Positions 23,651 through 59,597 of a DNA stretch of 64,000 bases are shown piece by piece. The DNA comes from Angustibacter luteus (lineage in GTDB: Bacteria; Actinomycetota; Actinomycetes; Actinomycetales; Angustibacteraceae), in NCBI RefSeq assembly GCF_039541115.1, contig NZ_BAABFP010000002.1, forward strand, positions 992,001-1,056,000, read 5' to 3'. The notes under the pieces are model-generated. The model made no database searches and had not been told where the DNA came from. It was given only the letters and a program-made list of their open reading frames with translations. Every line of letters starts with the position of its first letter. Within the stretch, counting starts at the first letter, position 1. The position numbers were made by a program, and so were the translations under genes.

Positions 23651-23902
23651 ATGCCGCGTTTCATGGACGTGCACACCATCGAGGGCGGGGTGTCGGCGGC
23701 TGACGTCGCCGGCGCCCACCAGGCGGACCTGGCCACCCAGGGCCCGCACGGCGTCAGCTACCTCAAGTACTGGGTCGACGAGCAGGCGGGCAAGATCTTC
23801 TGCCTGGTCGACGCCCCGGACGCCGAGGCCGCGAACACCGTTCACCGCGAGGCACACGGCCTCGTCGCCGACGAGATCTACCCCGTCAGCGAGCACGTGT
23901 GA
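23651..23902 (+). CDS. DUF4242 / SCO4226-like nickel-binding protein
   Basis: An 83-residue ferredoxin-fold protein (MPRFMDVHTIEGGVSAADVAGAH...) with a strong aaggag site upstream. The family prototype SCO4226 of Streptomyces coelicolor binds nickel. His8 in the DVHTIEGG turn, GVSYLKYWVDEQAGKIFCLVDAPDAEAA and HREAHGLVADEIYPV are the family signature. The gene ends 17 bp inside the convergent YciI/sheath-domain gene. The upstream 150 bp carry no other gene. Confidence 0.87.
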   Translation: MPRFMDVHTIEGGVSAADVAGAHQADLATQGPHGVSYLKYWVDEQAGKIFCLVDAPDAEAANTVHREAHGLVADEIYPVSEHV

Positions 23903-24665
23903 CGTCGTCGGGGTCGGCGTCGCCGCTGGCCGTCCACTGGCCGATTCGGAAGACCACGAACTCGGCCGGTCGGACGGGCGCGACGCCGATCTCGACGACC
24001 AGGCGGCCGTTGTCCAGGTCGGCCTGCGTCATCGTGGTCCGGTCGCAGCGGACGAAGAACGCCTGGTCGGCCCGCTCGCCGAGCAGCCGACCGGACCGCC
24101 ACTGGTCCTGCAGGACGTCACCGACCGAGCGTCGGACCTGATCCCACAACCGGTCGTCGTTGGGCTCGAACACCGCCCACTGGGTGGCATCGTCGATCGA
24201 GTGCTCGAGGTAGGCGAGGTACCGCCGGAGGTTGACGTAGTGCCACTCGGGATCGGGCCGCCAGTGCGGGTCGTCAATGTCGTCCAGGTGCTCGAACGCG
24301 ACGACGTCCCCGACCTGTTCGGGATGGCGGGGGAACGCGACCTTCCCGGCCGCGACGCACCAGCGGGCCACCTCGACCCGCAGCCAACCGGCCTGCACCA
24401 TGGGGTCCAGGCCGGCGATCCGCAGGGCCTCGTCCCGCCCGACCGTGTAGACGCTCATGCCGCGCAACCGCTCGTCGCTCTGCTCGCGCATCGGCCCGTT
24501 CGCCACCGTGATGCCCCGCTCAGCCAGCGAGAAGCCGTACGCCAGGTGCTCGCGCTGCAGGTCGTCGAGCTCGTCGTCAGCCAGCTCGGGCGGGTCGTCC
24601 GCCCGGACCAGGAACACCACGGTCCGGACGTCGAACTCGGCGGGTACCCCCGGCGGTCGGTCCAC
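23886..24665 (-). CDS. YciI-like domain fused to a phage-tail-sheath C-terminal domain
   Basis: A 259-residue protein starting at GTG 24665. Residues about 13-110 look like a YciI/YCII domain: VVFLVRADDPPELADDELDD, REHLAYGFSLAERG with His40, GPMREQSDE and an R-x-x-x-x-x-D-P-M-V-Q-A-G-W ending. Residues about 140-245 strongly resemble the C-terminal domain of contractile tail sheaths (phage, R-pyocin, eCIS): RRYLAYLEHSIDDATQWAVF, EPND, LWDQVRRSV, FLxxQWRSG-like DQWRSGRLLG, AFFVRCD and VEIGVAPVRPAEFVVFRIGQ. The sheath's own N-terminal and insertion domains are absent and no tail genes are near. Divergent from a BTAD regulator. Confidence 0.75.
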   Translation of the reverse strand: MDRPPGVPAEFDVRTVVFLVRADDPPELADDELDDLQREHLAYGFSLAERGITVANGPMREQSDERLRGMSVYTVGRDEALRIAGLDPMVQAGWLRVEVARWCVAAGKVAFPRHPEQVGDVVAFEHLDDIDDPHWRPDPEWHYVNLRRYLAYLEHSIDDATQWAVFEPNDDRLWDQVRRSVGDVLQDQWRSGRLLGERADQAFFVRCDRTTMTQADLDNGRLVVEIGVAPVRPAEFVVFRIGQWTASGDADPDDVTRAR

Positions 24666-24762: not shown

Positions 24763-26520
24763 ATGAGCCTCACCATCAGCCTGCTCGGCCGGCCGCACCT
24801 CACGCGCTCGGACGGTGACGCCTACCAGTTCCGGAGCCGCAAGAGCTGGGCGCTGCTGGCCTACCTGCTGCTCAGCCGGCGGCCGGCGCCGCGCGCCCAG
24901 CTCGCCGAGCTGCTGTTCGCCGAGGCGGACGACCCGGCCCGGGCCCTGCGGTGGAACCTGTCCGAGCTGCGGCGCGGCCTCGGCGAGGCGGCCACGCTCG
25001 AGGGGGACCCGCTGGTGCTGCGCCTGCCGGTGGGCACTGAGGTGGACGTCGACGTGCTCGCCCGCGGCAGCTGGGTGCAGGCCGTTGCGCTGGACGGCTT
25101 GGGCGAGGACCTGCTGGCCGGGATGTCGCTGCGGGGCGCGGCGGGGTTCGAGACCTGGCTGCTGGCCCAGCAGCGGCACGTGGCCGGTGCCAGCGTGGCG
25201 ATCCTGCACGAGGCGGCGCTGGGTTCGATGTCGCGCGGTGCCCCCGAGGCTGCCCTCGGGTACGCCGTCCGCGCGGTCGCCGCCGACCCGCTGGACGAGG
25301 ACAACCAGGCCCTGCTGATCCGGCTCTACCGCTTGGTCGGCGACGACGAGGCCGCGGCCCGCCAGCTCGAGCGCTGCACCGCCCTGCTGGAGCGCGAGCT
25401 CGGCACCTCCCCCGGGCCGGCGATCCTCGCCGCGGCCCGCGAGCGGCGGGCGGAGACGGTCGAGTCCGCCGACGAAACCACCATCGCTGCGTTCGTCGAG
25501 GCTGGGTCGGCCGCCGTCGCCGTCGGCGCGGTCGAAGCCGGGGTGCAGTCGCTGCGGACCGCGATCCGGCTCGCCGACGGCGCCGGGACGGACGCGCTGC
25601 GCACCTCCGCCCGGCTCACCCTGGGCGAGACGCTGATCCACGCGCTGCGCGGCCTTGACGAGGAGGGCCTCGCGGCCCTCTACGAGGCGGACGAGATCGC
25701 CGGCGGCTGCGGCGACCGCGGCGTGATGGCGAGGGCCCGGGCCGAGCTCGGGTACGTCGACTACCTGCGCGCGCACTACGACCGGGCCGAGCGCTGGCTC
25801 ACCGAGGCGATCGAGCTCAGCGAGCCGTCGTCCTCGACGCGCGCCGCCGCGACCACCTACCTCGGCCTGGTGGCCACGGACCGCTCGGACGACACCCGCG
25901 CCGCGGCGCTGCTGGGCGAGGCGATCACGCTGTCGCGCGCCGCGGGCGACCGGCGGCGCGAGGCGTACGGCCTGGCGATGCTGGGCCGGGTCGCCCTGCT
26001 CCGCGGCGACGTCCGGCTGGCCGCCGAGCAGCTCGACGCGTCGATCGCGCTGGCCGAGAGCGAGCACTGGCTCGCGTTCCTGCCGTGCCCGCAGGCGTTG
26101 CGGGGCGAGGTGCTCCTGATCGAGGGTGACGTGGACGGCGCCGACACCGTGCTGCAACAGGCGTTCGCACGGTCCTGCCAGCTGGCCGATCCCTGCTGGG
26201 AGGGGCTGTCCGCGCGAGCCCTGGCCCTGGTCGCCGACGCCCGCGGCAACGCCCGGGGCGCCTTCTCGCTGCTCGCCGACGCGCGGGTTCGGGCCGACCG
26301 GCTGCCGGACCGCTACACCTGGCTCGACGGCTACATCCTGGATGCGCAGTGCACGCTGGGGCTCAGGCACGGGCACCCGCAGACGCAGGAGTGGGTCGAC
26401 GCGTTGCGGGACCTGTCCTCGCGCACCGGTATGCGGGGTCTGGTGCTCCGTTCACTCGAGCACGGCGCGGCGCTCGGCCACGCGGACGACGCCGCCGCTC
26501 GTGCCCTGCTGGGTGACTGA
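24763..26520 (+). CDS. BTAD-domain transcriptional regulator with TPR-like repeats
   Basis: A 585-residue SARP-like regulator starting at ATG 24763 (MSLTISLLGRPHLTRSDG). Residues 1-90 form a winged-helix DNA-binding domain (RSRKSWALLAYLLLSRRPAPRAQLAELLF, LRWNLSELRRGLG). Residues about 95-240 are the bacterial transcriptional activation domain (FETWLLAQQRHVA, EDNQALLIRLYRLVGDDEAAARQLERCTALLERELGTSPGP). The rest is helical TPR-like repeats. Such proteins activate nearby gene clusters in actinobacteria; the divergent YciI/sheath gene is the most obvious target. The stop codon lies inside the first unit of a tandem repeat. Confidence 0.88.
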   Translation: MSLTISLLGRPHLTRSDGDAYQFRSRKSWALLAYLLLSRRPAPRAQLAELLFAEADDPARALRWNLSELRRGLGEAATLEGDPLVLRLPVGTEVDVDVLARGSWVQAVALDGLGEDLLAGMSLRGAAGFETWLLAQQRHVAGASVAILHEAALGSMSRGAPEAALGYAVRAVAADPLDEDNQALLIRLYRLVGDDEAAARQLERCTALLERELGTSPGPAILAAARERRAETVESADETTIAAFVEAGSAAVAVGAVEAGVQSLRTAIRLADGAGTDALRTSARLTLGETLIHALRGLDEEGLAALYEADEIAGGCGDRGVMARARAELGYVDYLRAHYDRAERWLTEAIELSEPSSSTRAAATTYLGLVATDRSDDTRAAALLGEAITLSRAAGDRRREAYGLAMLGRVALLRGDVRLAAEQLDASIALAESEHWLAFLPCPQALRGEVLLIEGDVDGADTVLQQAFARSCQLADPCWEGLSARALALVADARGNARGAFSLLADARVRADRLPDRYTWLDGYILDAQCTLGLRHGHPQTQEWVDALRDLSSRTGMRGLVLRSLEHGAALGHADDAAARALLGD

Positions 26521-50887: not shown

Positions 50888-52363
50888 TCAGCGCAGCGGC
50901 GACCCGGCCAGCAGACCGACGATCCCTTCGGGCAGTAGCGACAGCGCGATGCAGCCGGCCGCCGCGATGGACAGCGCCATCCGACCCGACATGGGCCCCG
51001 GGCTGGGCGGCTCGGCCAGCTCGGGGCCAGCGGAGAACACCTGCACGGCCCACCGCAGGTAGACGGCCACGCCCAGCACCACGTTCGCCACCGCGGCCGC
51101 GACCAGCCACCAGGCGCCGACGCCGATGACCGGGACCAGCGCGACGACCTTCGCGACCAGCCCGACCACACCCGGCGGCAGCCCGGCCAGGCAGAGCAGC
51201 CCGAAGGTGAGCACGAGTGCCAGCCCGGGCGAGCGCCGCCACATCCCGGCGTAGGCGTCCAGGCGGTGCCCGGCGCCGTCCACTGCGGTGCGCGCGACCC
51301 GGGCGACGACGGCGAACACGGCGAGCGTGCCGGCCACGTAGGCGAACAGGTAGGCCACGGACGCCGCCACCGCCCCCGCCAGCCGGCTCTGCCCGACCGC
51401 TCCGGCCAGCGGCAACAGGACCCAGCCGGCCTGCGCCACGGTGGACCAGGCGAGCAGGCGCACGGCGCGGTCCTGGCGCAGCGCGACCAGGTTGCCGACC
51501 GTCATGGTGAGTGCGGCGACGGCGCCGACCGGGACGGCCCAGTCGGCCGCGCGCTCCGGCGCGCCCAGGGCGAGTACCAGGACGACGGCCGCCAGCCCGG
51601 CCCCCTTCGAGACGGTCGACAGGAACGCAGCCACGGGCAGCGGGGCACCCGCGTAGGTGTCCGGCGTCCAGAGGTGGAACGGCACCAGGGACAGCTTGAA
51701 CGCGGCCCCCGCGACCACCAGCGCGAGCCCGAGGCCGTGCAGCAGCCGCAGATCCCCCAGCCGGTCCGACACCCCGGCTCCCAGCATCAGCGAACCGCTC
51801 GACGCGTACAGCAGGGCCAGCCCGAGGGCGAGCACGCCGAACGAGAGCACGGCCGTGAGCAGCAGCTTCACCCCGGCCTCGGCGCCGCGCCCGTCCCGCC
51901 GCAGGGCCACCAGACCGATGATGGGCAGCGACGCCGTCTCGAAGGCGACCGCGAACGTCGCCAGGTCCCGGGCGCCGGCCAGGGCACAGGCCCCCGCGGT
52001 GGCGGCGAGCAGCAGGAGCAGCAGCTCGGCCCGCGGCAGGGTCGGCTCCTGGTCGTCCGCGAGCGCCAGCAGCAGGCAGATCAGCGCGGACAGCAGGACG
52101 ACGATCTGGATCGCGAACGTGAGCCGGCTGGCCTCGTAGCCGCACGCGCCCGGCGAGGAGCAGAACGTCGCCCGGGTGCCGTTCGCCAACGGCGCCAGGG
52201 AGACGATGGCCACCACCAGGGACAGCACGGCGACCACGTCCAGCACCCGACGTCCTCGCCCGCGCGGCAGGGCGGCGTCCACGGCGAGCACGATGACCGC
52301 GCCCGCCGCGGGAGCCAGCCACGGCAGCAGCGCGGCGACGTCGACGCCGGGGACGCCGCTCAC
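50888..52363 (-). CDS. nuoN: NADH-quinone oxidoreductase subunit N
   Basis: A 491-residue antiporter-like membrane subunit of respiratory complex I starting at GTG 52363, overlapping nuoM by 4 bp. About 14 helices are visible. Family motifs include ATFAVAFETASLPIIGLVALRRDGRGAEAGVKLL, LVPFHLWTPDTYAGAPLPVAAFLSTVSKGAGLAAVV, with the conserved helix-5 Glu and helix-7 Lys, and LTFGLLCLAGLPPGVVGLVAK. It pumps protons. Last gene of the nuo cluster. Confidence 0.93.
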   Translation of the reverse strand: MSGVPGVDVAALLPWLAPAAGAVIVLAVDAALPRGRGRRVLDVVAVLSLVVAIVSLAPLANGTRATFCSSPGACGYEASRLTFAIQIVVLLSALICLLLALADDQEPTLPRAELLLLLLAATAGACALAGARDLATFAVAFETASLPIIGLVALRRDGRGAEAGVKLLLTAVLSFGVLALGLALLYASSGSLMLGAGVSDRLGDLRLLHGLGLALVVAGAAFKLSLVPFHLWTPDTYAGAPLPVAAFLSTVSKGAGLAAVVLVLALGAPERAADWAVPVGAVAALTMTVGNLVALRQDRAVRLLAWSTVAQAGWVLLPLAGAVGQSRLAGAVAASVAYLFAYVAGTLAVFAVVARVARTAVDGAGHRLDAYAGMWRRSPGLALVLTFGLLCLAGLPPGVVGLVAKVVALVPVIGVGAWWLVAAAVANVVLGVAVYLRWAVQVFSAGPELAEPPSPGPMSGRMALSIAAAGCIALSLLPEGIVGLLAGSPLR

Positions 52364-53985
52364 ACGGACCCCTTGGCCAGGGCCAGCAGCGCCTGCACCG
52401 CCGGCTCGGTCATCCGCAGCAGCAGCCACGGCACCAGCCCCAGGACCACCGTGACGACCACCAAGGCCGTCCCCACCCAGAGCTCCGCCGCCGTAGCGTC
52501 CGAACGGATCGCACCGATGGCTGCGATCGGTTCGGACGTCGTCGTTGGGGCAGCGGGTGGGGCCACGGGTGGGGCAGCGGGTGGTTCAGCCGGGACGCCG
52601 TGCCAGACCTTCCGCAGGACCCTCAGCAGGTACGCGGCGGCCAGCGCCGTGCCGACGACGGCGAGCACGGCCAGGGTCCGCCAGTAGGTCTCGTTGCCGC
52701 CGGCGGGCCCGGTCCAGGCCCCGTACACGGCGAGCAGCTCGCCCCAGAAGCCGGCCAGGCCGGGCAGCCCCAGGCCGGCGATGCAGCCGAGCGCCAGCAG
52801 CCCGCCGAGGTGCGGGTGGGCGTCGCGCAGGCCGGACCCGACCCGGTCCAGCAACCCGCTGCCGGACCGTTCCTTCAACCCGCCGGCCACCAGGAAGAGC
52901 AGGGCGGTGATCACGCCGTGCGCCACGTTCGCGAACAGCGCGCCCTGCAGCCCCTGCGCCGTCCCGGATGCGATGCCGAGCGCGACGAAACCCATGTGCG
53001 CCACCGACGAGAACGCGACCAGCCGCTTCAGGTCGCGCTCGACCAGGCAGACCAGACCACCCCACAGGATGCCCACCACGCCGAGCGCGCCGAGGTAGGG
53101 CGCGACCGCCGAGAACCCTTGCGGCACAGCCGGGACGACGATCCGCACCATGCCGTAGCTGCCCATCTTGAGCAGCACACCGGCCAGCAGCACCGAGCCC
53201 ACCGTCGGCGCGGCGGTGTGCGCACTAGGCAGCCAGGTGTGCAGCGGCCAGACCGGGACCTTGACCGCCAGCCCGGCGACCAGCAGGGCGGCGACGACCA
53301 CCTGCTCGGGCCGGGTCATCCCGGTGCCGTGCGCGGCGGCCAGCTTCACGAGGTCGCTGGTCCCGCTGTCCAGCGCCAGCAGCAGGATGCCCAGCAGCAT
53401 GACCGCGGACCCGAGCGCGGTGTACAGCACGAAGCGCGCGGCGGCGTCGCGTCGTCCGGCGTCGTCGTGCGGGTCGCCCCACCAGCGGATGATCGCCCAC
53501 ATCGGCACCAGCACGATCTCGAAGGCCACGAAGAACAGGACGACGTCCGCGGCCGTGAAGGTGGCCAGCGCCCCACCTTCGACGGCCAGCAGGGCGACGA
53601 CCAGCGAGCGCCTCGAGCCGGTCGGCGCGCTCTCCCCGCTCGCCACCGCCTCGGGGGTGGGCACCGGCGACTGCAGCGTGGCGTGCACGGTCACGGCCAC
53701 CCCGAGAGCCGCGGTGAGGACGATCAGCGGCCAGCTGATCCCGTCGACGGTGAGGTGCAGCCGGACGCCCAGGGTCGGGATCCACGGCCAGTCGACCTCG
53801 AGCGCCGGTCCCGGCCCCTGCCAGGGACGCGCGGCCAGCATCAGCAGGCTGAACAGCAGCACGACCGCACTGGTGACGATGCCGGTCGCGGCGGCGATCT
53901 GCTCGCCGAGCGCCCGGGGTACGAGCAGCAGTCCGATCGCCACCACCAGGGGCAGTCCGACGACGAGCAGCAGCAGGTCGCTCAT
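52360..53985 (-). CDS. nuoM: NADH-quinone oxidoreductase subunit M
   Basis: A 541-residue membrane subunit starting at ATG 53985, overlapping nuoL by 4 bp. It has the NuoM hallmarks VVLFFVAFEIVLVPMWAIIRWWG (key Glu), LAVKVPVWPLHTWLPSAHTAAPTVGSVLLAGVLLKMGSYG (Lys) and VERDLKRLVAFSSVAHMGFV. A Pro/Ala-rich insert (AEPPAAPPVAPPAAPTTT) sits before the last helix near residue 490, which is unusual for the subunit. One of three proton-pumping antiporter-like subunits. Confidence 0.95.
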   Translation of the reverse strand: MSDLLLLVVGLPLVVAIGLLLVPRALGEQIAAATGIVTSAVVLLFSLLMLAARPWQGPGPALEVDWPWIPTLGVRLHLTVDGISWPLIVLTAALGVAVTVHATLQSPVPTPEAVASGESAPTGSRRSLVVALLAVEGGALATFTAADVVLFFVAFEIVLVPMWAIIRWWGDPHDDAGRRDAAARFVLYTALGSAVMLLGILLLALDSGTSDLVKLAAAHGTGMTRPEQVVVAALLVAGLAVKVPVWPLHTWLPSAHTAAPTVGSVLLAGVLLKMGSYGMVRIVVPAVPQGFSAVAPYLGALGVVGILWGGLVCLVERDLKRLVAFSSVAHMGFVALGIASGTAQGLQGALFANVAHGVITALLFLVAGGLKERSGSGLLDRVGSGLRDAHPHLGGLLALGCIAGLGLPGLAGFWGELLAVYGAWTGPAGGNETYWRTLAVLAVVGTALAAAYLLRVLRKVWHGVPAEPPAAPPVAPPAAPTTTSEPIAAIGAIRSDATAAELWVGTALVVVTVVLGLVPWLLLRMTEPAVQALLALAKGSV

Positions 53986-55907
53986 CGCAGCCCCACCCCC
54001 ACCACGACGGCCACGACGGTGCCCGCCACCAGCCAGGTCAGGTAGCCGGTGGTGGCGCCGGTCTGCATGCGCCGCAACGCGATCCCGGCCCACCGGCTCG
54101 CAGTCGCGGACCCGCGGACGTAGGCGTCGACGACGTCCCGGTCCCCGGCAGTGACCAGTCGGGCCAGCGCGCGCACGGGCCGCACCACCAGCCGGTCCTG
54201 CGCGGCGTCCAACCCGAACCCGGCGACCAGCACCCGGGTCAGCCGGGCCGGCAGCACGGACGCCGGATCGCCGACCCGCCCGGCCAGCGCGAACGTCGCC
54301 AGCACGCCACCGATCGCCACGACCGCGCCGAGCACGGCCGTGGGGACGCCGAGGTGCACCGTGCCCGGCACGACCGGCCAGAGCAGCAGCAGCCCACCGA
54401 GCACCGTCGGCACGGCGAGCACCAGCAGCGGCACCGTCATCGCCAGCGGCACCGGCGTGACCGCGACGGCTCCGCCTTCGGCCGCCTCGACGGCCTGCTC
54501 GGTCGCGACGGCGGACTCGCTCTCGACCTCCGCCAGGTCCTCGTGGGCCTCGGCGGGCGTGTCGCGGACCACCAGCCACCACGTCCGCGCGCAGTAGGCG
54601 GCCGTGACCAGCGCGGTGACGAGTGCGGTGACCAGCACCAGCACCGCGGCCCACGGCTGACCGCCGTGCACCCCTTCCTCCGCCGCGCCGAGCACGGCCT
54701 CCTTCGACCAGTACCCGGACAGCGGCGGCACCCCGGCAAGCGACGCGAGCCCGAGGCTGAACAGCACTGCTACCAGCGGGGAGCGGCGCCCGGCGCCGGC
54801 CAGGTCCCCCATCGCGGTGCTGTGCACCTGGTGGGCCAGCGCACCGGCGGACAGGAACAGCAGCGCCTTGAAGCCCGCGTGCGAGAGCAGGTGCAGCAGG
54901 GACGGCTCGGGCCCGAGCTCGGGCGTCGTGACGGCCAAGGCAGCAAGCAGGTAGGCGACCTGGCTGATCGTCGACCAGGCGAGCACCCGCTTGAGGTCCG
55001 TCTGCACGCAGGCGATCAGCGCCGAGCCCAGCATCGTGATGGCCGTGACCACTGCGAGCGTGCCGCGCGCGGCCGGAGCGGCGAGCAGCAGCGGCAGCAG
55101 CCGGGCCAGGACGACGCCACCGGCCGCGACCATCGTGGCCGCGTGGATGAGAGCGGAGACCGGGGTCGGGCCCTCCATCGCGTCCGGCAGCCACGTGTGC
55201 AGCGGGAACTGGGCGGACTTGCCGATCACCCCGACCAGGAGCAGCAGCGCGGCCGCGGTCAGGGTGGTGGTGCCGAGCGACTCCAGCGTGCGCGGCCGCA
55301 GCAGGACGCTGATGGACGTCGTCCCGCTGGCGACCCAGAGGACGATGATCCCGAGGACGAACCCGATGTCGCCGACCCGGGTGACCAGGAACGCCTTGAC
55401 CGCGGCCGCCCGGGCGGCCTCGCGCTCGCTCTCGTGCCCCACCAGCAGGTAGGAGCACAGACCCATGACCTCCCAGCCGATGAGCAGCAGGATCAGGTCG
55501 TCGGCCTGCACCACCACGAGCATCGCCGCGGTGAACAGCGAGACGGTCGCGGCGAACGCGCGGTAGCGCGGGTCCTTGGCCTGGTACGCGGTCGAGTAGA
55601 CCTGCACGCAGAGCGCGACCGTGGTGACCATGACGGCGACCAGGGCGCTGAGCCGGTCGGCTCGGACGGCGAGCTCGATCGTCCCCGCACCGGTCGGCAC
55701 GGGTGGCAGCAGCGGGACGTTCACCGCGAAGTGCCCGTTCGCGGTGGCGACCAGCTCCCCCACTGCCGCAACGAGAGCCGCCGCGGTGCCGGCGATCGCG
55801 ACGGTGGCCTGGGCGGCCCGTTCGCGGCGCGGCAGCAGCAGGGTGCAGAGCGCGGCGAACGCGGGCAGCAGGACGACGAGCCGCGCCGCGCCGGCCACGG
55901 CGCTCAC
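53982..55907 (-). CDS. nuoL: NADH-quinone oxidoreductase subunit L
   Basis: A 641-residue subunit with about 16 helices and the long lateral C-terminal helix. Conserved parts are LLIGWEVMGLCSYLLVGHESEREAARAAAVKAFLVTRVGD, GKSAQFPLHTWLPDAMEGPTPVSALIHAATMVAAGGV and VAYLLAALAV preceded by DLKRVLAWSTIS. It overlaps nuoK upstream and nuoM downstream by 4 bp. A charged acidic loop (EAHEDLAEVESESAVATEQAVE) interrupts the region before the last helices. Confidence 0.95.
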   Translation of the reverse strand: MSAVAGAARLVVLLPAFAALCTLLLPRRERAAQATVAIAGTAAALVAAVGELVATANGHFAVNVPLLPPVPTGAGTIELAVRADRLSALVAVMVTTVALCVQVYSTAYQAKDPRYRAFAATVSLFTAAMLVVVQADDLILLLIGWEVMGLCSYLLVGHESEREAARAAAVKAFLVTRVGDIGFVLGIIVLWVASGTTSISVLLRPRTLESLGTTTLTAAALLLLVGVIGKSAQFPLHTWLPDAMEGPTPVSALIHAATMVAAGGVVLARLLPLLLAAPAARGTLAVVTAITMLGSALIACVQTDLKRVLAWSTISQVAYLLAALAVTTPELGPEPSLLHLLSHAGFKALLFLSAGALAHQVHSTAMGDLAGAGRRSPLVAVLFSLGLASLAGVPPLSGYWSKEAVLGAAEEGVHGGQPWAAVLVLVTALVTALVTAAYCARTWWLVVRDTPAEAHEDLAEVESESAVATEQAVEAAEGGAVAVTPVPLAMTVPLLVLAVPTVLGGLLLLWPVVPGTVHLGVPTAVLGAVVAIGGVLATFALAGRVGDPASVLPARLTRVLVAGFGLDAAQDRLVVRPVRALARLVTAGDRDVVDAYVRGSATASRWAGIALRRMQTGATTGYLTWLVAGTVVAVVVGVGLR

Positions 55908-56260
55908 CGGGCCTCCACGTCGCCGGTCATCGCACGGTTCTCGGTGAGGTCACGGTTCTCGCCGAGGTCACGGGCCGCCTGCAGGTCGACATCCCCGCGC
56001 CGCCGGAACAGCAGCATCACGGCAGCGAGCGCCACGCCGACCTCGGCGGCTGCGATCGTGATCACGAAGACCGCGAGCGACTGCCCCCCGTGCAGCTCGT
56101 CCCGGTACGCCGCGTCGAAAGTGACCAGCAGCAGGTTCGCCGCGTTCAGGATCAGCTCGAGGCCGATCAGCACCAGCACCGCGTTGCGCCGGGCGAGGAC
56201 GCCGTAGACACCGGTGCCCGCCAGGACAGCGGCCAGCAGCATGGGCAGCGCGAGGTGCAT
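55904..56260 (-). CDS. nuoK: NADH-quinone oxidoreductase subunit K
   Basis: A 118-residue, three-helix membrane subunit starting at ATG 56260 ([46 protein letters not shown]). The two buried Glu residues needed for proton transfer are in GLELILNA and AAAEVGVALA. It has a 20-residue polar tail beyond the usual end. Shares one base with nuoJ (TGATG). Confidence 0.93.
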   Translation of the reverse strand: MHLALPMLLAAVLAGTGVYGVLARRNAVLVLIGLELILNAANLLLVTFDAAYRDELHGGQSLAVFVITIAAAEVGVALAAVMLLFRRRGDVDLQAARDLGENRDLTENRAMTGDVEAR

Positions 56261-56769
56261 CAGTGCTCCCGGTCCTCGCGGGACAGCACGAGGGCGCTGA
56301 CCAGCGCGGCGAGGAGCAGCAGCGACAACAGCTCGAACGGCAGCGCCCAGGCGCCGAACAGCGAGCGCGCAAGTGGTTGTGCCGCACCACGTTCGGGGTC
56401 GATGACGACCTCGCGGCCGCGGACGGCGTACACCAGTGCGGTGCCGAGCAGCCCGGTCACGCAGATCCCGGCGACGGCTGCGGCGACGCGCTGCGGCCAG
56501 GGCGCGTCCACCTCGGCGGAACGCCCGATCGGGGCGCGCGTCAGCATCAGCGCGAACAGCACCAGGACGACGACGGCACCGACGTACACCAGCACCTGGA
56601 CGAGGGCGACGACCTCGGCGCCGAGCACCAGGTAGCAGCCGGCGAGAGCGCCCAGCGCGGTGACCAGCCAGAGCGCCGCGTGCACCACCTGGCGGGTGGT
56701 GACCGCGAGGATCCCGGCCGCCGCCGTGAGCAGCCCGAGCAGGCTGAACAGCACGTCGCGGGTCGTCAC
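56260..56769 (-). CDS. nuoJ: NADH-quinone oxidoreductase subunit J
   Basis: A 169-residue five-helix membrane subunit starting at GTG 56769 ([36 protein letters not shown]). The conserved [31 protein letters not shown] carries the Glu and the pi-bulge Tyr of helix 3. It overlaps nuoI by 4 bp. Confidence 0.93.
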
Positions 56770-57404
56770 GAGTCGTCCCGGGCGGGCTCGCTCGCTGAGT
56801 CGGCCGGCGTCTCGGCCTGCGGGGCGGCCTGCGGGGCGACGGGACGTCGGGGCCGGGCCGGCCGAGTCGCCGCAGCCACCTCCTTGGGCTCTGCTGCACC
56901 AGGGTCGACGGCGGGCGGCGCCGGCACGGTGGCCATCCACTCGCCGAGCCGCTCCTTGCCGTGCAGCAGGTCGCGGATGTCGGTCTCGGCGTACTCGAAC
57001 TCGGGGCTCCAGTGCAGCGCGTCGAACGGGCAGACCTCGATGCAGATGCCGCAGTACATGCAGAGCGAGAAGTCGATGTCGAAGCGTTCCAGCACGTTGC
57101 GCTGCCGCTCCCGGCCACCCTCGGTCGTCGCGGGCAGCGTCTGCTTGCTCGAGTCGATGTAGATGCACCAGTCCGGGCACTCGCGGGCGCACAGCATGCA
57201 GACCGTGCAGTTCTCCTCGAGCAGCGCGATCACGCCGCGGCTGCGCGGCGGCAGGTCGGGGGCGACGTCCGGGTACTCGTGGGTATGGCTCGGGGTGGCC
57301 AGCGTGCGCGCGGTGACCGCCATGCCCTTCAGCAGGCCGGGCAGCGAGCGTCCGCGACGTCCGCCCTCGTCGGGGGCCGGTGCGTCAGGCTCGCGCTCAT
57401 CCAC
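56766..57404 (-). CDS. nuoI: NADH-quinone oxidoreductase subunit I (2x[4Fe-4S])
   Basis: A 212-residue peripheral subunit holding clusters N6a and N6b. Two ferredoxin motifs are seen: [12 protein letters not shown] (Cys66, 69, 72, 76) and [12 protein letters not shown] (Cys115, 118, 121, 125). An N-terminal amphipathic segment [16 protein letters not shown] should sit on the membrane. The C-terminal ~45 residues are a Pro/Ala-rich tail, as in many actinobacterial homologues. It starts 28 bp after nuoH. Confidence 0.95.
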
Positions 57405-57431
57405 GGCAGCATCCTGTCAGGCTCATCGGGC

Positions 57432-58391
57432 TCATCCCATCGCCACGACGACGACGGAGGTGATCGCGAGCTGCAGCAGCGCCAGCGGGACCAGCACCTT
57501 CCAGGCCAGCAGCTGCAGCTGGTCCTCACGGAGCCGCGGCCAGGCGACCCGGATCCAGATCACCAGCACGGCCACGACACCGGTCTTGAGCAGTGTCCAC
57601 AGCCAGCCGAGCTGGTCGCTGAACGGTCCCTGCCAGGCGCCCAGGAACAGCACCGCGGTCAGCGCCGACAGGACGACGATCCCGGCGTACTCGCTGAGCA
57701 GGAAGAACGCGAAGCGCAGGCCGGTGTACTCGGTGTACGGCCCGAACACGATCTCGGAGTCGGCCACCGGCATGTCGAACGGCGGTCGGGTGATCTCCGC
57801 GACGCCGCCCACCACGAAGCAGACCAGGGCGGGCAGCTGCCAGATGAGCCACCACGGCTGCCAGGCCTCGCCGATGCCCGTCAGCGACAACGTCCCGGCC
57901 GCCATCGCGACGCTGCTGGCCGCCAGCACGATCGGCAGCTCGTAGGACAGCAGCTGGGCAGCCGTCCGCAGCCCGCCGAGCAGCGCGTACTTGTTCGCGC
58001 TGCTCCAGCCGGCCATCAACGTGCCGAGCACCCCGACCGCGCTGACCGCGAGGACGAAGAGCAGCCCGGCGTCCAGGTCGGCACCGACCACGCCCGGCGC
58101 GAGCGGGATCGCCACCATCGCCACCAGGTACGGCACCAGCGCGATGGCCGGGGCGAGCCGGAAGACCTTGCCGTCCGCGGCCGCCGGGGTGATGTCCTCC
58201 TTCTGCAGGAACTTCACGCCGTCCGCGACGAGCTGGGCCCAGCCGTGGAACCCACCGGCGTACATCGGCCCGAGCCGGCCCTGCATGTGCGCCATCACCT
58301 TGTGCTCGGTCTGCCCGACGAGCAGCGGTAGCACCAGGAACGCGGCCAGCACGCCGACCACCCGCACGAGGGTCTCGACGACCTCACTCAT
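57432..58391 (-). CDS. nuoH: NADH-quinone oxidoreductase subunit H
   Basis: A 319-residue eight-helix subunit forming part of the quinone chamber. Family motifs are KVMAHMQGRLGPMYAGGFHGWAQLVADGVKFLQKED, GWSSANKYALLGGLRTAAQLLSYELP and AEITRPPFDMPVADSEIVFGPYTEYTGLRFAFFLLSEYAG. ATG 58391 overlaps the nuoC stop by 8 bp. In complete operons nuoG precedes this gene; here nuoC does. Confidence 0.95.
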   Translation of the reverse strand: MSEVVETLVRVVGVLAAFLVLPLLVGQTEHKVMAHMQGRLGPMYAGGFHGWAQLVADGVKFLQKEDITPAAADGKVFRLAPAIALVPYLVAMVAIPLAPGVVGADLDAGLLFVLAVSAVGVLGTLMAGWSSANKYALLGGLRTAAQLLSYELPIVLAASSVAMAAGTLSLTGIGEAWQPWWLIWQLPALVCFVVGGVAEITRPPFDMPVADSEIVFGPYTEYTGLRFAFFLLSEYAGIVVLSALTAVLFLGAWQGPFSDQLGWLWTLLKTGVVAVLVIWIRVAWPRLREDQLQLLAWKVLVPLALLQLAITSVVVVAMG

Positions 58392-58995
58392 CGCGCGGCC
58401 CCCACTGCTGGTCGGGCACGCCCGGGGGGAGCATCTTGCGGCGGGACGGCGAGGTGCCGGCGTCGCTCTCACCCGGCTCCTTCGCGCCGGGCCACGGCTT
58501 GCTGGCCCGCGCGGCCAGCACGAAGGACTTGCGCAGCGGCGTGCCCTCGAAGCCGTCAGGCAGCAGCAGCGGGCGCAGACCGAGATCCGTGCCGTCCTGG
58601 AACCCACTGAAGTCCAGCCCGAACATCTCGTGCGTCTCGCGCTCGTGCCACGCCGCCCCGGGCCACAGGTCGCTCACGCTGGCCAGCGTGGCCGAGTCGG
58701 CTGGCACCCGGGTGCGCAGCAGCAGCCGCGCCACCCCGCCGTCCGGCAACGGGATCGAGCACGCCAGGTGGACGACGACGTCGACCGCGGCGGGGTCGAC
58801 CTCAGGCTCGTCGACGGCGGACAGCCAGTCGAAGAAGTCCAGCCCCAGCTCGTCGCGCGCCCAGCCGAGCGCGTCGTGCCAGCGCTCGACGGGCACGTCG
58901 AGACACACGGTGCCCTGGCCGTCCGCGGAGGCGAGCAGGTCGTCCAGCCCGAGAGCCGCGGCGAGGCGTTCGCCCGCGTCCTGCGGGCTGCTCAC
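58384..58995 (-). CDS. nuoC: NADH-quinone oxidoreductase subunit C
   Basis: A 203-residue peripheral subunit (30-kDa type) starting at GTG 58995 ([16 protein letters not shown]). The signature [26 protein letters not shown] and [19 protein letters not shown] identify it. It overlaps nuoB by 4 bp. It is not fused to NuoD, and no nuoD follows, although NuoC normally binds NuoD. Confidence 0.92.
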
Positions 58996-59597
58996 GAGCC
59001 GGTTCCGGCGGGCGCCAGCGGACCGCCGTCGTCCGGGCCGACCAGCGGGCGGCTCACCTGCGCGGCGGAGACCGGACGACGTCGCGCCGCGATCGCTGCC
59101 CCGCTGAGCGACTCGCCGGCGATCTTCTCCTGCAGGCGCAGGATGCCGTGCAGCAGGCCCTCCGGCCGGGGCGGGCACCCCGGGACGTACACGTCGACCG
59201 GGATCAGCTGGTCGACACCCTTGGTGACGCAGTACGAGTCCCAGTAGGGGCCGCCGGAGTTGCTGCAGGCACCGAACGAGATGACGTACTTCGGCTCGGG
59301 CATCTGGTCGTAGAGCCGCTTGATCGCGGGGGCCATCTTGTCCGTGACGGTGCCGCTGACCACCATCAGGTCGGCCTGCCGCGGCCCGGGTGCGAACGGG
59401 ATCACGCCGAGCCGGATGAAGTCGTGCCGAGCCATGGACGCCGCGATGAACTCGATCGCGCAGCAGGCCAGGCCGAAGTTGAACACCCACAGGCTGTACC
59501 GGCGGCCCCAGTTCAGCACCAGCCGCAGCGGGCGCGGCGCCGCCTCGGACAGGGGCCCCACGCGCGGCGCAGGCAGGTCGACAGCCACGGCGCTCAC
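58992..59597 (-). CDS. nuoB: NADH-quinone oxidoreductase subunit B
   Basis: A 201-residue subunit holding cluster N2, the electron donor to quinone. The four ligands are Cys45-Cys46 (GLACCAIEF), Cys111 (GACSNSGG) and Cys141 (VPGCPPRPE). The segment [35 protein letters not shown] is typical. GTG 59597 or 59588 can start it. It is the first gene of the cluster; the 160 bp upstream hold no nuoA and lead to the divergent amino-acid importer. Confidence 0.93.

Follow-up and report, generated by a model that had tools for sequence, protein, structure and literature searches.

An in-frame fusion of a YciI-family protein to the C-terminal domain of a contractile injection system sheath

The window (the whole 64 kb stretch of DNA that was analysed) carries, at 23886..24665 on the reverse strand, a gene of 259 codons with a GTG start, which agrees with the start of a stand-alone YciI relative in a genome of the same order (G528). 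Open frame, translation and the Pfam matches to PF03795 and PF17482 reveal a full-length YciI protein that is joined via a short linker to a whole sheath C-terminal domain. Four parts follow each other along the reverse strand: the YciI part (residues 1-127; 24285..24665), which shares 57% identity with a 129-residue stand-alone protein (L183); a linker of ten residues, DDIDDPHWRP (residues 128-137; 24255..24284), unaligned with either parent; the sheath C-terminal domain (residues 138-246; 23928..24254), supported by DNA similarity, by a match of its AF2 model to CIS sheaths and by 19 sheath domains from the nearest lineage, to which it is 60-72% identical; and an acidic tail unrelated to the sheath (residues 247-259) with the stop codon (23886..23927). 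The frame holds no stop or frameshift, its GC contents at the three codon positions (0.725/0.422/0.927) are coding-like, and a simple scan found no promoter- or terminator-like site. The initial annotation had proposed a two-domain fusion at 23886-24665; the frame is confirmed on the reverse strand, both Pfam families match above their cut-offs, the folds agree, and the limits of about 140-245 given for the sheath domain were right to within two residues.

The fusion gene is flanked by a convergent and a divergent neighbour. The former, outside the fusion (23651..23902, forward strand), encodes an SCO4226-like nickel-binding protein (PF14026, E 7e-25; NCBIfam NF033706 at 77.3 bits, below the cut-off of 125), has 83% DNA identity to a genome of the same order (G668) and is overlapped by the end of the fusion's tail by 17 bp. 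The latter (24763..26520, forward strand) resembles a BTAD-domain regulator (PF03704, E 3.7e-9; TPR matches below cut-offs). Searched at E 0.01 against 52 eCIS or sheath loci, it matched none of them. A regulator-like gene lies upstream in the eCIS regions of G642 and G610; the BTAD neighbour as a shared eCIS regulator was rejected, since that search found no match at E 0.01 and the reverse search reached only E 0.008. Farther along the window, a complex I-type run in the order B-C-H-I-J-K-L-M-N occupies 50888-59597 on the reverse strand (Pfam). The usual position of the gene for the 49-kDa subunit (NuoD) is between the C and H genes; in this run the two abut, with no NuoD gene between them.

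By its E values, the YciI half is a weak match to Pfam but a strong one to its relatives. PF03795 (YCII) covers residues 23-102 at E 2.4e-5 and 25.2 bits against a cut-off of 24; the Pfam scan was run on a 305-codon form of the frame, and domain limits are quoted here in the 259-residue numbering. The closest relative, the stand-alone protein of G528, is 57% identical over residues 2-128 (E 1.3e-40), and NCBIfam gave no match to the fusion protein at E 0.01. An AF2 model of the whole fusion, built from a smaller, properly aligned set of 13 rows (the first large alignment had set YciI rows against the sheath part), has a mean pLDDT of 57.1; its YciI half is confident, with blocks up to 92, and its sheath half weaker, with blocks of 30-70. 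Its best PDB fold matches are HI0828/YciI (1mwq, E 2.4e-4), ClcF and TftG, such that residues 1-127 share both fold and sequence with the YciI family. H40, G57-P58, R68-G69, D87-P88 and W102 are common to the fusion and all eight aligned YciI relatives. The His/Asp pair H40 and D87 we take to be the putative active-site residues of the family.

The sheath identity of the second half is, on the profile and sequence scores, far beyond chance. PF17482 (Phage_sheath_1C) matches residues 137-241 at E 2e-15 and 57.1 bits, against a cut-off of 26.9, and phmmer against PDB sequences finds the CIS sheaths 9ezm (E 1.1e-38, residues 137-245) and 8bky (E 1.3e-37, residues 137-249). Modelled alone (AF2, 21 rows), this half attains a mean pLDDT of 68.5 and matches CIS sheaths from E 1.9e-8, many of them with a large rmsd of about 10-19 A, which would fit a C-terminal arm that is placed differently. 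Residues 138-246 align end to end with eCIS sheaths (8bky from the Streptomyces CIS, 9ezm from H. borinquense, and sheath-1 of G642 and G610). In contrast to an eCIS sheath, the fusion has neither the N-terminal arm nor any of the outer domains, as the sheath similarity begins at residue 138, and it is not adjoined by recognised tube or baseplate genes.

What such a domain does in a sheath is described in passages of two sources (PMC6088184; PMC8894135): domain I alone, including the part that matches this domain, forms the sheath, its N- and C-terminal arms are exchanged between subunits, and its attachment helix (alpha-10 in diffocin) touches the tube. The conserved sheath core is the part nearest the tube, according to a passage of a third (PMC9230969). 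A role in the inter-subunit handshake of sheaths, ascribed to the domain from the start, agrees with these passages of PMC6088184 and PMC8894135. Gp25/Alg9-like baseplate proteins could in principle be a handshake partner without a full sheath subunit (a passage of PMC8894135). The gp25 family PF04965 has no Pfam match in the fusion protein; a weak Foldseek row links the sheath-half model to a putative tail lysozyme (2ia7, E 0.8).

Both junctions of the fusion coincide, as aligned, with domain ends. The 129-residue YciI protein of G528 ends in '...PVGSEVAFEDL', which aligns with '...QVGDVVAFEHL' in the fusion; from there the fusion runs through DDIDDPHWRP into the sheath domain, which starts at DPEWHYVN. 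In nearly all YciI loci with tails read, the frame stops soon past the YciI domain, whereas that of the fusion continues into the sheath domain. At the DNA level, the similarity to sheath genes, about 75-77%, is contained within 24256-23928 in the rows shown. The 13 residues past GQWTA form an acidic tail peculiar to the fusion; in close sheath relatives, 4-5 residues with other letters follow there before the end.

Searches for the same two-domain architecture, which had been thought worth looking for in other genomes, recovered none besides this one: both halves are covered in one of 59 relatives, one of 396 genomes of the order and one of 286 genomes of the phylum, each time this genome (the samples overlap in part, and scores were given to the best candidates per genome only). 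What these samples establish is the rarity of the fusion rather than its uniqueness. Residues 1-142 have a match in 17 of 394 genomes of the class, with the full query covered in this genome only, and a contig search with residues 1-158 gave no match. PF17482 matches in 63 of the 394 class genomes, in 62 over the cut-off; no match over the cut-off has a shorter open frame than the fusion (311), while a match that fails the cut-off sits in a frame of 289. In the other short frame with a sheath match in the order (G527:C134, 147 codons), the match begins 114 bases away from the end of a contig, which has probably truncated it. A few YciI matches lie within long open frames, e.g., of 715, 758 and 918 codons. 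Matches to the fusion occur in 121 of 72,556 plasmid and 8 of 50,697 phage records, none with 80% query coverage. Both halves occur together in none of 87 loci (31 YciI and 56 sheath loci), and YciI as a resident of eCIS loci was rejected for 52 eCIS or sheath loci, which have no YciI match at E 0.01. DNA searches against a genome of the same genus and two of the same family returned short scattered matches only, and the literature searched yielded no description of a YciI-sheath fusion.

In a tree of 104 sheath C-domains, from which identical rows were removed beforehand and in which many forks are unresolved and the bootstrap is not fully settled, the fusion falls inside a supported clade of 25 rows (96/88); its exact place therein is less sure (85/90). 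The clade includes G642, G610 and G712, whose sheath domains are 66-67% identical to that of the fusion, and many viral-collection contigs, one of which carries the nearest sheath part found (72% identical). The regions of G642 and G610 have two sheath and two tube matches each and read by eye as complete eCIS loci; together with second sheath matches and tubes on many other contigs, they point to an eCIS-like lineage, although some of the viral-collection contigs may be of phage origin. The G712 gene (L125:8724-10502; G712:C1:2617723-2619501) is a nearly full sheath gene with no eCIS neighbours recognised by eye in 31 kb; upstream of it lies a large gene that, by eye, reads like a LuxR-type regulator. 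A sheath-like gene in G431 (L094; G431:C3:121418-122437; open frame of 392) has no recognised tail neighbours and is found near an adenosylhomocysteinase-like gene (by eye), in a genome that has no tube match.

Little else of an injection machine appears to surround the fusion. The statement of the initial annotation that the 64 kb hold no tube or baseplate genes agrees with a search with 26 proteins predicted in the eCIS regions of G642 and G610: their sole match to the window is to the fusion, besides a generic BTAD match at E 0.008. The same 26 proteins revealed no further pieces in 38 kb around the one tube gene of the genome and in 12 kb beside the window. This tube gene (PF06841, E 2.2e-33; 146 residues) lies on a different contig (C4:86419-86859; L047:419-859). 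A tree of 112 tubes places it as sister (93/82, a branch that is not starred) to a clade of 23 tubes (100/96), 22 of which come from loci with a sheath in the 25-row clade of the fusion; the remaining one, L205, is absent from the rows of the sheath tree. Because both trees point to one lineage, the sheath domain and the lone tube may be regarded as two separated leftovers of one machine type. The search of the genome for an eCIS or phage tail locus, proposed as a check, gave one lone tube of matching lineage and no other sheath C-domain. Docking onto a sheath-like partner encoded elsewhere is not supported: in this genome, which is rated 100% complete, PF17482 has no second match, gp25 (PF04965) and baseplate J are absent, and the lone tube is what remains.

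The reading that best accommodates these observations is a lineage-specific chimera, in which a YciI-family protein has captured a sheath domain that serves as at most an oligomerisation appendage; we give it a probability of about 0.55. In this scenario, a stretch of about 330 bp for the sheath C-terminal domain of an eCIS would have become fused in frame to the 3' end of a YciI gene and the source injection system would have been lost, leaving a lone tube gene elsewhere, presumably in this order of events. The product, if expressed, would work as a YciI-family protein (small, ferredoxin-like and enzyme-like, with YciI activity) that bears a folded C-terminal appendage, the likeliest effect of which, if any, would be to link protein copies together by self-association. 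With most of the central beta-sheet and of the C-arm preserved but no N-arm, the protein could form side-by-side links between its copies, yet no sheath; a normal sheath lattice would be impossible for the fusion alone, as the N-terminal arm, one of the two exchanged arms, is missing. Against this reading stand the occurrence of the fusion in a single genome, the divergence of the sheath part described below and the modest AF2 confidence of the sheath half.

The restriction to a single genome also speaks for a decaying relic, i.e., an accident of eCIS loss with a functionless sheath part and a YciI part that works or not. This alternative, unlikely yet deserving serious weight, draws on the divergence of the sheath part. 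The fusion branch is long in the sheath tree (0.41 vs. a median of 0.055), and a rough three-point dN/dS yields 0.46 for it vs. 0.16 for the sister branch (24 triples); pairwise medians are 0.31 for 19 fusion pairs and 0.21 for 89 sheath pairs, all values being rough Nei-Gojobori estimates from 109 G+C-rich codons. Overall, the sheath part has an identity of 0.70 to the lineage consensus, compared to 0.76-0.89 for 19 of the 20 lineage sheaths. The second helix (0.45 vs. a sheath minimum of 0.50) and the turn that follows it (0.40 vs. 0.60) are below all 20 sheaths, and the remaining seven segments fall inside the sheath range. Among these, the FFVRCD strand (0.88) equals the best sheath and the first helix (0.71) is ordinary; in the entry segment (0.80), 19 of 20 sheaths score higher, the next strand (0.73) ties with the lowest sheath, and in the C-arm (0.81), three of 20 sheaths are equal or lower. 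The second helix would correspond to the tube-facing helix alpha-10, the two being equated by the order of elements rather than by superposition; the divergence would then be concentrated in the tube-facing helix and the turn that follows it, and that of the helix would be expected once no sheath is built. Against a relic speak the frame free of stops and frameshifts, the domain limits kept on both sides and a rough dN/dS that is still below 1. Moreover, of the 33 columns in which 20 sheath domains show at least 90% conservation, the fusion retains 29 (0.88; the sheaths give 0.87-1.0 in a leave-one-out comparison; the columns were drawn from the sheath rows of the first large alignment). The long branch and the dN/dS of 0.46 therefore indicate that constraint on the sheath part is at least partly relaxed; apparently, it is not gone.

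A second alternative is a salvaged device of two parts: the sheath domain would attach YciI to rings or short filaments formed by the lone tube, without a sheath. The tube at C4:86419-86859 has as its nearest relatives tubes that lie beside sheaths resembling the domain of the fusion, and in CIS, as passages of PMC8894135 and PMC6088184 describe, domain I contacts the tube through its attachment helix. Yet the two genes are on different contigs, the tube-touching helix is among the most diverged parts, and eight of the order's 54 tube-bearing genomes have no sheath-domain match, so that a lone tube may need no such partner. Altogether, this possibility is improbable, but docking on the lone tube is the most interesting one left; it is favoured by the shared lineage and disfavoured by the divergence of the helix and the distance between the two genes. 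In a more elaborate form, which we consider doubtful indeed, the fusion and the tube would make up a sheathless two-part descendant of an eCIS: the lone tube would form rings or short tubes, and the altered helix of the sheath domain would match an altered tube and hang the YciI enzyme on it.

Another conceivable use of a lone sheath domain is that of a decoy that would cap or poison sheaths, be it those of an infecting phage or those of a different injection system. A kept C-arm with a missing N-arm could make a chain terminator, and sheath genes up to 72% identical occur on viral-collection contigs, though the ones placed resemble eCIS loci; annotated phage sheaths are only remotely similar (39.6% identity in the best of the eight phage records), and a PADLOC scan of the fusion protein matched no anti-phage defence family at E 0.01, which makes such a decoy very improbable. 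Finally, an assembly or base-calling artefact that joined two genes might account for the occurrence in one genome only, but is hardly credible for a junction well within a 1.3 Mb contig, in a genome with ratings of 100% completeness and 0% contamination, with no other eCIS piece beside the junction, a nearest sheath part only 72% identical and no second copy in the genome.

Should the chimera reading hold, the gene shows how a dismantled contractile injection system can be built into something else: a self-assembling sheath core, cut at its limits, is hung on an unrelated enzyme-like protein, and a tube of the same lineage persists at another place in the genome. If the pieces still bind, this would be a domestication of injection-machine parts; if they do not, it would still be a natural test of the sheath C-domain alone. 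The device of two parts, if true, would amount to a small enzyme on a scaffold, assembled from leftover eCIS pieces.

Across the order, 54 of 396 genomes have a tube; eight of the 54 lack a sheath-domain match, all in one family (f17), and the reverse case, a sheath-domain match in the absence of a tube match, occurs in five genomes (G049, G431, G464, G607, G712), where two draws of 396 are taken as the same genomes and a distant sheath could escape the protein search. The eight tube-bearing genomes suggest that leftover eCIS parts are common enough in the order to be studied. The lone tube gene of the present genome is followed by a gene for 118 residues (86863-87219), for which neither Pfam nor the loci compared offer a convincing relative (no match in Pfam), and then by a VapB-like gene and a LytR_C gene; the gene listings stem from a codon-score script, such that starts are approximate and several gene names were given by eye.

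In one genus (g19), six genomes (G019, G349, G528, G603, G659, G668; loci L093, L153, L154, L155, L156, L157) have a lone tube at most 1.5 kb from groEL (by eye); three of the tubes directly adjoin it, and the other three are separated from it by one predicted gene. These six are another case of one eCIS part that stands without a sheath match, but the part is a tube rather than a sheath domain, and their tubes form a clade of their own (100/100) that is not sister to the present lone tube. Membership of the present lone tube in this groEL-near group was rejected, as the tube clades differ. Two further genomes with no sheath-domain match encode proteins of 303 residues, the first part of which matches the tube family PF06841 (L159, G489:C4:230926-231837; L160, G583:C15:12323-13234).
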